Below, piece by piece: positions 2,152 through 6,197 of a stretch of DNA of 6,197 bases. Numbering within the stretch: the first letter of the stretch is position 1; every line of letters begins with the position of its first letter. The DNA comes from Microcaldota archaeon (lineage in GTDB: Archaea > Micrarchaeota > Micrarchaeia > Micrarchaeales > CABMGC01): the NCBI GenBank assembly GCA_021851985.1, contig JAJZOS010000047.1, positions 1 to 6,197 on the forward strand. Direction: 5' to 3'. The notes under the pieces are model-generated. The model saw only the letters and a program-made list of their open reading frames with translations. It was not told where the DNA came from and made no database searches. Made by a program: the position numbers and the translations under genes.

Positions 2152-2361
2152 TCAATCCCCGTACTTCAACCTGTAAGCATCTATATCTTCTTTTAAGATC
2201 GTATCCCTGCCCAACTTTTTCGCCCTTGCAAAAGCGTACTTGGCTATTTTGGATGCCTTTTTTTCCAGGATTAGAGATATGGAGGAGGCTGCGCTGTCCG
2301 TAAGAGAGATTCCTTTTCTTTTTTTAACGAGTTTCTTTATCGCAACTTTTGGTATGTTCAC
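2152..2361 (-). CDS. Archaeal histone (single histone-fold, 69 residues)
   Basis: This is a histone-fold protein that dimerises and wraps DNA in archaeal chromatin. The 69-residue length is typical of tail-less archaeal histones. Alpha1 is IPKVAIKKLVKK, loop L1 is about residues 14-20, the long alpha2 is about 21-48 (TDSAASSISLILEKKASKIA onwards), and the L2 DNA-contact segment GRDTI (51-55, with the R-x-T pair R52 and T54) leads into alpha3, KEDIDAYRLKYG. The N-terminal half is unusually lysine-rich, with KKLVKKRKG. The start is GTG at 2359-2361, with AGGTG at 2369-2373 as SD, 7 bases upstream. It heads a minus-strand unit with the zinc-ribbon and PRC-barrel genes. A box C/D sRNA lies on the same strand only about 20 bases upstream. 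Confidence 0.92.
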   Translation of the reverse strand: MNIPKVAIKKLVKKRKGISLTDSAASSISLILEKKASKIAKYAFARAKKLGRDTILKEDIDAYRLKYGD

Positions 2362-2368
2362 CTATATG

Positions 2369-2373
2369 CACCT
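2369..2373 (-). promoter_or_regulatory. Shine-Dalgarno site of the histone gene
   Basis: AGGTG on the minus strand, 7 bases before the GTG start at 2361. A second AGGTG copy at 2359-2363 overlaps the start codon itself; no later in-frame ATG is close enough for that copy to serve. Confidence 0.6.
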
Positions 2374-2379
2374 ATTTTT

Positions 2380-2442
2380 CATTTCAGCACTCAAGATCGT
2401 CTTCACCGCGTGAGCTCAGCGTAGTGCATTTTCATCATATGT
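2380..2442 (-). ncRNA. Box C/D guide sRNA (2'-O-methylation guide)
   Basis: Read on the minus strand, all four boxes occur in order: C = ATGATGA (2432-2438), 12-nt guide (2420-2431), D' = CTGA (2416-2419), 9-nt spacer (2407-2415), C' = GTGAAGA (2400-2406), 12-nt guide (2388-2399), D = CTGA (2384-2387). Box C and both D boxes match consensus; C' differs from RUGAUGA at one base but keeps both GA steps needed for the K-turn/K-loop. The two 12-nt guide spacings match the geometry of archaeal C/D sRNPs (L7Ae, Nop5, fibrillarin). The flanks allow a short terminal stem (CAT before box C, ATG one base after box D). The ends given are estimates. The D-guide is complementary to an anticodon loop CU-CAA-GA and would direct methylation of C34, so tRNA-Leu(CAA) is the proposed target; the D'-guide target was not identified. 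Confidence 0.82.
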
Positions 2443-2462: not shown

Positions 2463-2470
2463 AATAAAAG
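2463..2470 (-). promoter_or_regulatory. TATA-like element for the sRNA and possibly the histone operon
   Basis: The minus strand reads CTTTTATT, centred about 28 bases before the start of box C, which would put transcription start close to the 5' end of the sRNA. It is not a perfect archaeal TATA box (consensus near TTTATATA), and no better candidate was seen nearer to the histone gene. Position is the main support. Confidence 0.4.
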
Positions 2471-2557: not shown

Positions 2558-2878
2558 ATGAGCCTTATTGCTGTAAATGAAGCAAACTTCGAAAGCGAGG
2601 TACTGAAATCTCAGATCCCAGTAGTGGTAGATATATGGGCACCTTGGTGCGGACCATGCAGAATGTTTAGCCCAATATTTGAAGAACTCTCTTCTGAATA
2701 TGATGGAAAAGTAAAATTTGTGAAGATAGATGCGGATGAAAATGAAGGTATCGCTACAAAATACAACATAATGAGCATACCAACAACTCTTCTCATAAAA
2801 AAAGGGGAATTGGAGGCCATGAACGTAGGCGCAGTCCCGAAAGAAACCCTAAGGAAATGGATTGAAAAGAATCTTTAA
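2558..2878 (+). CDS. Thioredoxin
   Basis: A cytoplasmic dithiol/disulfide carrier that reduces protein disulfides. The 106-residue length and order of elements are those of classic thioredoxin: an N-terminal strand, the VVVDIWAPWCGPC strand-plus-active-site with C31-G-P-C34 and the preceding W30, the central KFVKIDADEN strand (D58 and D60), the cis-proline loop SIPTT (P75), and the C-terminal strand and helix (MNVGAVPKETLRKWIEKN). The CGPC active site favours a reducing thioredoxin over a glutaredoxin or protein disulfide isomerase. There is no signal peptide. The gene is first in a plus-strand unit, with hisS 9 bp behind it. The reductase that would recharge it is not in the window. Confidence 0.95.
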   Translation: MSLIAVNEANFESEVLKSQIPVVVDIWAPWCGPCRMFSPIFEELSSEYDGKVKFVKIDADENEGIATKYNIMSIPTTLLIKKGELEAMNVGAVPKETLRKWIEKNL

Positions 2879-4695: not shown

Positions 4696-5736
4696 TTAAG
4701 TCGAGCCGTATATATACGGTCCGGAAAGTACTCCTGGATCTTGGTTTGGAGAAGATGACATATAGAATTGGCCTATTGAGATGTAGTTCTGCTGCCCTGT
4801 TACTTTTGCAACCACTCTTATCTGGACAACCTTGCCTATTACTGTTGTAAGGGGAATGGTGGCATTCCTGAATGCCGATTCAGTAGTATTATGAAACCCG
4901 CTTGAAAATGAAAGGTTATACGTATTGTAATGGGCTATGATGCTAGGCGAGCCGTTATACAGTATTTCTACATATAAATTGGCATTCTGCGGGCTAATTA
5001 TTTTAAAGTTTAGGAAGGGCTTGTTTGCTATAAAAGGGCTTGAAGTAAGGTTTCCGGGGCTATTTTGCAATCCGCAGTGATAAGTGCTTGCAAAAAAGGT
5101 TGCATTATAATTGCTCCATGGATATTTGCCTACGTAGCAACGGCTTTTATTTGCATGTGTTATATTTAATGGAGCTGTTCCGAAACCGGCCCCTGTAACA
5201 TTCCATCCGGTAAATTCTCCCGAGGAGAAGTTGCCATTATACACCGTGGTATATATTGTTTTTGGAGGAGGTATAGTGGTCATGTTAAGCTTAAGCAGAG
5301 CTGAGCCGCACGCTCCACCCCCTAGACCGGTAGTCATAGACAATGTATAAATTTGCGGTGGAACTGTCAAATTCTTGAAGAAAGTTACACAATCATATGT
5401 AAGAGTCTGGTTAACATATGTCTGGTTATTTGCGCCGACCATTTTTATATGGACACTGCTGCTGTTTCCTGCCGCCACCCAAATTCCAGTGTAATTTGCG
5501 GTAAGGATGCATTTTGCAGTAGATGTTTTATTGAATGCTGTGCTGTTAAGCTGGTAGCCTGTACAGTTGTATATGATGGTTGTTGTTATTGTTGAATTTG
5601 CAGTAGGGGTATAATTTTGTGTTGTGGTAACTGTTGTGAGGCTTATATGCTTTACATTAAATCCTGTTTCAACGTATGCTATTGCTATCATTATGACTAG
5701 TATTATAACAAAGCCGATTACGCTTTTTTTTACCAC
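4696..5736 (-). CDS. Membrane-anchored, sequon-rich surface protein with C-terminal jelly-roll-like domain
   Basis: Probably an exported protein held by one N-terminal membrane helix (residues 5-21, SVIGFVIILVIMIAIAY, after MVKK). A threonine-rich stalk follows (about 33-57), then a beta-rich region (about 57-155) with four cysteines, then a region starting VYNGNFSSGEFTGWNVTG (about 165-327) that resembles galactose-binding/carbohydrate-binding jelly-roll modules. I count 21 N-x-S/T sequons in about 345 residues, implying dense N-glycosylation outside the cell. Six cysteines (about 58, 76, 116, 143, 200, 221) could form disulfides. The GTG at 5736 is preferred over the GTG at 5745 because GTGAT (5741-5745) then stands 4 bases upstream as SD. 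The final residues, SSSPNQDPGVLSGPYIYGST, carry no recognisable anchor. A role in the cell envelope or host contact is inference. Confidence 0.85.
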   Translation of the reverse strand: MVKKSVIGFVIILVIMIAIAYVETGFNVKHISLTTVTTTQNYTPTANSTITTTIIYNCTGYQLNSTAFNKTSTAKCILTANYTGIWVAAGNSSSVHIKMVGANNQTYVNQTLTYDCVTFFKNLTVPPQIYTLSMTTGLGGGACGSALLKLNMTTIPPPKTIYTTVYNGNFSSGEFTGWNVTGAGFGTAPLNITHANKSRCYVGKYPWSNYNATFFASTYHCGLQNSPGNLTSSPFIANKPFLNFKIISPQNANLYVEILYNGSPSIIAHYNTYNLSFSSGFHNTTESAFRNATIPLTTVIGKVVQIRVVAKVTGQQNYISIGQFYMSSSPNQDPGVLSGPYIYGST

Positions 5737-5780
5737 AAATATCACAATCCCTTTTATACATAGTTATTTATTTGAATCTG

Positions 5781-5946: not shown

Positions 5947-6197
5947 TCAAGGCGCACTGTAACCGGAAGTCCATGCACTTGTGTATGTCACATTTGTAGG
6001 CACTCCATTGTTATCATTTCCGCTGTAGTCGTTAGCGTTGCCGTTGAGTGGCCACCATCCAACAAGATTGTTAACATTGATAGGAGCTCCTCCTATTCCT
6101 TCTTTGTAGAGAGCTTGAATCTCTGATTGTGAAAGTGAAGTGTTATAAAGTTGAACGTTAGTAATAGAACCATTGAATGATCTTAAGTTGGCCGGAA
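5947..6197 (-). CDS. LamG/concanavalin-like repeat surface protein, C-terminal end (5' end outside window)
   Basis: An open frame of 82 codons enters from the right edge and stops at 5947-5949. It holds the end of one LamG-type module (residues 4-36: FNGSITNVQLYNTSLSQSEI, then QALYKEGIGG) and the beginning of another (44-72: LVGWWPLNGNANDYSGNDNN, then GVPTNVTY). Such modules are beta-sandwich domains of secreted proteins that bind sugars or other proteins, often in tandem in ARMAN-type archaea and candidate-phyla bacteria. The last module stops after about 40 residues with WTSGYSAP, far short of a full domain (about 150 or more), so the end is either a truncation or a family-specific tail. 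Four N-x-S/T sequons are visible. It is convergent with rpl41e, which occupies the DNA just beyond the stop. Confidence 0.82.
   Translation of the reverse strand, partial: PANLRSFNGSITNVQLYNTSLSQSEIQALYKEGIGGAPINVNNLVGWWPLNGNANDYSGNDNNGVPTNVTYTSAWTSGYSAP

Follow-up and report, generated by a model that had tools for sequence, protein, structure and literature searches.

The closest described counterpart of the locus analyzed here is a Pyrococcus C/D sRNA that, in the available text of one review, is reported for the first anticodon position of tRNA-Leu(CAA) (PMC7994747). Available sections of a second account predict Cm34 of tRNA-Leu(CAA) in P. furiosus and state that Cm34 was detected in some tRNAs, with other predicted marks not detected among the tRNAs analyzed (PMC7668247), and the Haloferax table, in the accessible part of its source, gives Cm34 only for tRNA-Met and tRNA-Trp (PMC2584109). 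Regarding genomic context, 7% of the C/D genes of six archaea share sequence with the 5' end of the open reading frame behind them, an arrangement called rare because it lowers downstream expression (PMC7994747, reviewing Tripp 2017, in the same available text). On the rRNA side, the accessible parts of three further sources report that yeast snR40 targets 18S Gm1271 (PMC3938493), that SNORD32A guides human 18S G1328 (Gm1328) (PMC10932220), and that yeast C1274 is the equivalent of E. coli C1054 (PMC13231172).

The window, that is, the whole stretch of 6,197 nucleotides that we analyzed, corresponds to G000:C30:7136-13332, where G000 is the own assembly of 643,104 bases in 30 contigs. Its Pfam content includes an RNase PH-like exosome subunit, ribosomal L37ae, a PRC-barrel protein, a histone, a thioredoxin, and HisRS. 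Among the contigs found to carry related HisRS genes, the two that bear a name belong to Candidatus Micrarchaeota (86% and 52% identity). A perfect 14-bp inverted repeat, GCCAAGGTTCCCTC...GAGGGAACCTTGGC, occupies positions 1-33 at the head of the exosome-subunit reading frame. Further along the window, a long frame on the minus strand (4696-5745) has a hydrophobic N terminus and no Pfam match, and the adjoining minus-strand frame (5947-6195) resembles, by eye, a fragment of a LamG-type surface protein.

A preliminary description had placed a complete box C/D sRNA on the minus strand upstream of the histone gene, reading ATGATGA, 12 nt, CTGA, 9 nt, GTGAAGA, 12 nt, CTGA in the order C-D'-C'-D, and rereading the sequence from 2438 to 2384 reproduces this array exactly. 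The predicted core, 55 nt that reach from box C through box D (2384..2438, minus strand), consists of box C, ATGATGA (2432..2438), a 12-nt D' guide, AAATGCACTACG (2420..2431), box D', CTGA (2416..2419), a 9-nt D'-C' spacer, GCTCACGCG (2407..2415), a near-consensus box C', GTGAAGA (2400..2406), which is one base off UGAUGA, a 12-nt D guide, CGATCTTGAGTG (2388..2399), and box D, CTGA (2384..2387), all on the same strand. The surrounding gap indeed measures 196 bp and extends from the archaeal histone gene (2152..2361, minus strand; GTG start, PF00808), on whose 5' side the sRNA lies, to a thioredoxin open reading frame identified by Pfam (2558-2878, plus strand). Box C/D sRNAs are recognized by boxes of the type RUGAUGA, CUGA, UGAUGA-like, and CUGA in this order within 50-65 nt, by guides of about 8-12 nt 5' of D or D' that are complementary to rRNA or tRNA and whose fifth nucleotide from the box faces the target, by conservation of the sRNA above its flanks, and by a fibrillarin in the genome. 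The element at 2384-2438 shows all of these features, with fibrillarin encoded in the own genome at 248.7 bits; a Nop5-like open reading frame adjoining fibrillarin was not seen by eye in its locus (L077), and the sRNA alone folds no better than shuffled sequences (z = 0.30). Judged from sequence, the element is very probably a genuine archaeal box C/D methylation-guide sRNA, and RNAs of this type are known. To the joint reading, a canonical C/D sRNA with its own TATA box, a transcript that spans the histone gene, and guides toward C34 of the tRNA and toward 16S rRNA, we assign a probability of roughly 90%.

Positions 2-11 of the D guide (GATCTTGAGT) are complementary to ACTCAAGATC, nucleotides 31-40 of tRNA-Leu(CAA) in the anticodon loop. 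The ten contiguous Watson-Crick pairs were matched by none of 4,000 shuffled guides on the same tRNA, and C34, the wobble base, lies opposite the fifth guide position counted from box D. From this pairing and the fifth-nucleotide rule, the D guide is predicted to direct Cm34 in tRNA-Leu(CAA). The exact tRNA-Leu(CAA) pattern was matched in 57 of 60 genomes, the own genome included, with misses in G004, G020, and G029. Since the ten target bases are part of the pattern itself, finding them constant is not independent evidence; the independent points are the fit of 57/60 genomes to the pattern and the agreement with ARAGORN, which named Leu(CAA) in all four intronless copies tested. In one of the misses, G029, whose genome is 84% complete, neither the guide nor the tRNA match was found.

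The own copy of tRNA-Leu(CAA) is found at G000:C16:17903 with an intron inside its T-loop. We rejected the reading that the own genome is devoid of this tRNA, because the intron-bearing copy is present and is missed by ARAGORN. Inspection by eye placed a T-loop intron in tRNA-Leu(CAA) at the own locus (L185, G000:C16:17780-18080) and in nine of ten f2 loci (L078, L079, and L081-L087). Introns of two other tRNA genes contain box-like motifs by eye, ATGATGA and ATGAAGA in a tRNA with a CCA anticodon (L066) and GTGATGA and ATGACGA in a tRNA-Met (L047), reminiscent of the tRNA-Trp intron guide.

We compared the element among relatives using the kinship terms of the genome search, in which g1 is the own genus and the families f1 and f2 constitute one order. 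Within g1 (seven comparisons to the own copy, eight genomes), identity amounted to 77-100% for the sRNA, 29-77% for the 60 nt upstream, 24-71% for the sequence separating box D from the start codon, and 47-77% for the start of the histone coding sequence, and the sRNA was better conserved than the histone coding 5' end in 7/7 comparisons. Reading the histone-upstream region in related genomes, whose alignment had been suggested in the preliminary description, revealed the element at the same place, with the D guide and D box 5' of the histone gene, in 29 of 30 histone loci (own genome included); the sole exception was L013 (G029), where D guide and D box were not found upstream of the histone. 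Boxes lost in relatives within preserved flanking sequence had been named as grounds against a C/D sRNA. The converse was found, as boxes and D guide are kept and flanks are not, which supports the C/D sRNA reading.

On a wider scale, the 15-mer GATCTTGAGTRCTGA (D guide plus D box) occurs in 166 of 301 genomes of the phylum, and its reversed control pattern in none of the 301. A hand count by group gave 77/85 for f1, 67/79 for f2, 144/164 for the order, and 22/137 for the rest of the phylum; the 20 of 164 order genomes in which the exact GATCTTGAGTRCTGA was not found are those whose assembly, often incomplete, lacks the exact 15-mer. Genome G050 holds tRNA-Leu(CAA) with no such element at its histone gene. 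Among the loci read, the D' guide changes between genera while the D guide stays.

Linkage to the histone gene was widespread. In all 51 order genomes for which both coordinates are listed, the element lies directly 5' of the histone gene on the same strand. These are the genomes, out of 57 with a histone match, that have guide coordinates among the matches listed; the others are G029 and G050, where no exact element was found, G012, G016, and G024, where the element was read directly before a histone-like frame, and G018 (L027), where it lies upstream of the histone. The same arrangement was read in G032, a genome with no match in the histone search and yet a histone-like frame directly behind the element. 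Protein alignment, which may err by a few nucleotides, puts histone codon 1 at -2 to 55 nt from box D in f1 (29 genomes) and at 4 to 20 nt in f2 (22 genomes), with 4-8 nt in 19 of the 22. By eye, the start codon follows box D after 4-5 nt in 11 of 14 f2 loci and after 1, 6 (or 14), and 11 nt in the remaining three. In the window itself this distance is 22 nt (2362..2383, minus strand), a stretch that carries an AGGTG motif as a possible Shine-Dalgarno sequence. In one further locus (L021, G021), inspection by eye suggests that the histone frame may start within the sRNA, at an ATG or TTG in box C' and the D guide, which would be a true coding overlap.

Outside the order, 18 loci with the identical 15-mer (L120-L137) gave no histone match in a one-query BLAST search, which also missed two true histones (L146 and L147), and their next reading frames bear no likeness to histones by eye; two of these loci, L122 and L126, are little informative on the neighboring gene, as the contig stops about 100 nt downstream. 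Because the same 15-mer is thus found outside the order with no histone match beside it, the guide is probably older than its histone linkage. Two of these loci have the look of a small tandem array, with D guide and D box repeated three times (L128, G113) or two times (L129, G119) within about 130 nt.

Next to the sRNA, the upstream sequences point to a promoter. Across 45 loci from 45 order genomes, the A+T content reaches 96-100% at positions -29 to -25 relative to box C and 91% at -24 and -23, compared to 38-87% elsewhere, where A+T is again raised at -10 to -7; a TATA-like hexamer starts between -38 and -24 in 29 of the 45 loci, between -58 and -44 in four, and between -20 and -6 in one. 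Based on this profile, we predict a TATA box in the window, CTTTTATT (2463..2470, minus strand), 25-32 nt ahead of box C. Archaeal TATA boxes are located about 26 nt ahead of the transcription start, and since about 26 nt separate the TATA position here from box C, the transcript is expected to start at box C or close to it. Guide RNA and histone gene are likely to share one transcript in f2, because the gap between box D and the start codon is too short to accommodate another TATA box outside the sRNA, and promoter and spacing together suggest that a shared transcript is probably found in most genomes of the order. The case is weaker in f1, this window included, because box D and histone can be up to 55 nt apart and, in this window, the AGGTG motif lies between them.

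We infer the following course of events. A transcript would start at or near box C from the TATA box of the sRNA and continue into the histone gene, so that it would also yield the histone mRNA. On the C/D and C'/D' kink motifs, an RNP with L7Ae, Nop5, and fibrillarin would form, as is the established mechanism for such RNAs; the D guide would then pair with the anticodon loop of tRNA-Leu(CAA), leading to methylation of the C34 2'-OH, and in most of g1 and one other genus the D' guide would lead to methylation at the equivalent of 16S 1051. It is tempting to speculate, although we regard it as a tentative idea that is more doubtful than likely, that this one transcript meets two fates: either the 5' C/D RNP protects the guide, with processing just past box D yielding a nearly leaderless histone mRNA, or it blocks the histone start. 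If this were true, histone output would be coupled both to how much C/D protein is available and to methylation of the tRNA-Leu(CAA) wobble base, a coupling that could explain the order-wide union of guide and histone despite the changing D' guide. A regulatory role toward the histone is put forward here as a hypothesis.

Alternatively, the element could be nothing but a leader of the histone mRNA that acts in cis, with L7Ae on the kink motifs controlling translation and no guiding in trans. The 4-5 nt between box D and start codon in those 11 of 14 f2 loci would suit such a leader, as would the position of the shared promoter and the repression by Sulfolobus L7Ae of its own mRNA via a 5' k-turn, described in the available part of PMC5539422. 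However, a cis element would have no need for an invariant 10-nt guide that matches a tRNA anticodon loop, and several genomes of other families have the identical D guide in C/D-like elements that neighbor other genes. We therefore consider an exclusively cis-acting leader improbable.

For the guide sRNA, the second predicted target lies in 16S rRNA. Positions 2-10 of the D' guide form 9/9 bp with 16S GTAGTGCAT in G003 and G005, both of the same genus, and in G010; the own assembly gave no 16S match. The target G aligns to E. coli position 1051 (C in E. coli), in a region that we take to be 16S helix 34. As 57 of 4,000 shuffled guides attain 9 bp on the same 16S, this nucleotide, with a predicted Gm, is the probable rather than the certain target of the D' guide. 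Because yeast C1274 equals E. coli C1054, yeast Gm1271 should correspond to E. coli 1051, the D' target position, and presumably human G1328 is this same site. The D' guide contains TGCACTACG in seven of eight g1 loci and in two g3 loci (L017 and L020); among the loci read, this type is restricted to g1 and g3, and G007 (g1) has a different one. For the D' guides of other genera, tried in nine genomes on their own 16S loci, no convincing 16S target was found: matches with a score of 9.0 were rejected in G015 and G019, being located in the flank of the 16S gene, and in G018, where the match lies inside 16S and starts at the target nucleotide (guide positions 5-13), running into box C. In G010, the best D' match (10 bp) is likewise in the flank, and the 9-bp match is in the 16S gene. 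On 23S, neither the D guide nor the D' guide ever scored above 7.5 in five genomes (G008, G001, G005, G002, and G010). A scan of own tRNAs with at most two mismatches found no D' guide match inside a tRNA gene in the loci scanned, the nearest (L037) being just outside a tRNA-Lys gene. Several of the 16S matches L105-L111 are about 1950-2275 nt long, compared to about 1486 nt, and the insertions in these long 16S genes are probably introns.

The sequences ACTAAAGATC or ACTGAAGATC, one mismatch off the D guide target, stand 29 nt before the D' region in L090-L094, L096-L099, and others. Their position ahead of the D' site in the 16S of many relatives would fit a classical double guide, in which both guides act on 16S and the D guide aims at a nucleotide in ACTAAAGATC, 29 nt 5' of the D' target, and double guides within 100 nt are frequent according to the accessible portion of PMC4644070. 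Nevertheless, the sole mismatch falls exactly on the target nucleotide, seven f2 16S loci (L095, L100, L101, L102, L103, L105, and L110) contain no site with one mismatch or fewer even though their genomes retain the exact D guide, and tRNA-Leu(CAA) pairs with no mismatch at all. Owing to the mismatch at the target nucleotide and the loss of the match in the seven f2 loci, we rejected 16S as a target of the D guide, and a double guide on 16S seems slightly less credible still than the cis-acting leader.

The claim that such an array is unlikely to arise by chance held up in shuffling, as the four-box pattern had no match in 1,000 dinucleotide shuffles of the window, both strands considered. 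The partial pattern CTGA-N9-GTGAAGA occurs once in the window and in 0/200 shuffles. Scanning 466,825 bases of loci, a set in which some genomes are present twice, returned 41 four-box matches, 39 of them with the identical D guide; the other two are L126, with a near-identical guide, and L060, which resembles a separate C/D gene. Box motifs are short enough to make a fortuitous array within an intergenic gap conceivable, but the window shuffles and the conservation across the order reduce this to a negligible prospect, and we rejected it. Rfam, used for the covariance search that had been suggested, placed sR19 (E = 0.015, 24.0 bits) and snoPyro_CD (E = 0.37, 21.9 bits) exactly at the element, both under the gathering threshold of 45 bits, so that the location agrees while membership in either family at that threshold was not obtained.

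Locus L060 (G000:C1, minus strand from 1148) appears to be a second C/D-like gene of the own genome. Because TACGAGGTATTT, its D' guide, is similar to the one that the tRNA-Leu(CAA) sRNA carries in other families (L120-L123, L136, and L137), guides may be reshuffled between sRNAs.

Taken together, the RNA class and the target nucleotide are already known, as are C/D genes that overlap a coding gene at its 5' end. The order-wide pairing of the guide RNA with a histone gene is the part that is absent from the accounts found: a literature search that covered few subscription papers, and thus does not prove absence, had among the papers listed none that ties a C/D sRNA to a histone gene of archaea. 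An interval that protein annotation leaves blank would be filled by a gene with a nameable product and target, and two exact sites are predicted in uncultivated archaea, Cm34 in tRNA-Leu(CAA) and a Gm at position 1051 of 16S. That a guide RNA has stayed united with a chromatin gene also offers a natural test of whether C/D genes in archaeal mRNA leaders are tolerated or regulatory.

Of the described systems, the Pyrococcus C/D sRNA shares with the present element the RNA class, the tRNA, and the target nucleotide (PMC7994747, PMC7668247); the available portions of its accounts make no mention of histone linkage, and the two are likened by target, not by sequence or neighbors. Similarly, snR40 and SNORD32A are eukaryotic snoRNAs that we liken by target site, with no claim of homology to the archaeal sRNA. 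In the 5'-overlapping archaeal C/D genes, as covered by the available text on them, the guide RNA adjoins a start codon as it does here. Unlike those genes, called rare, the near-overlap described here is kept in most genomes of the order, and the neighbor is the histone in 51/51 compared. The Sulfolobus leaders controlled by L7Ae have, in the accessible part of their description, a kink-turn just 5' of the coding sequence, as here (PMC5539422). Whereas those leaders are cis regulators, the element leading the histone gene is predicted to be a complete two-guide C/D RNA as well.
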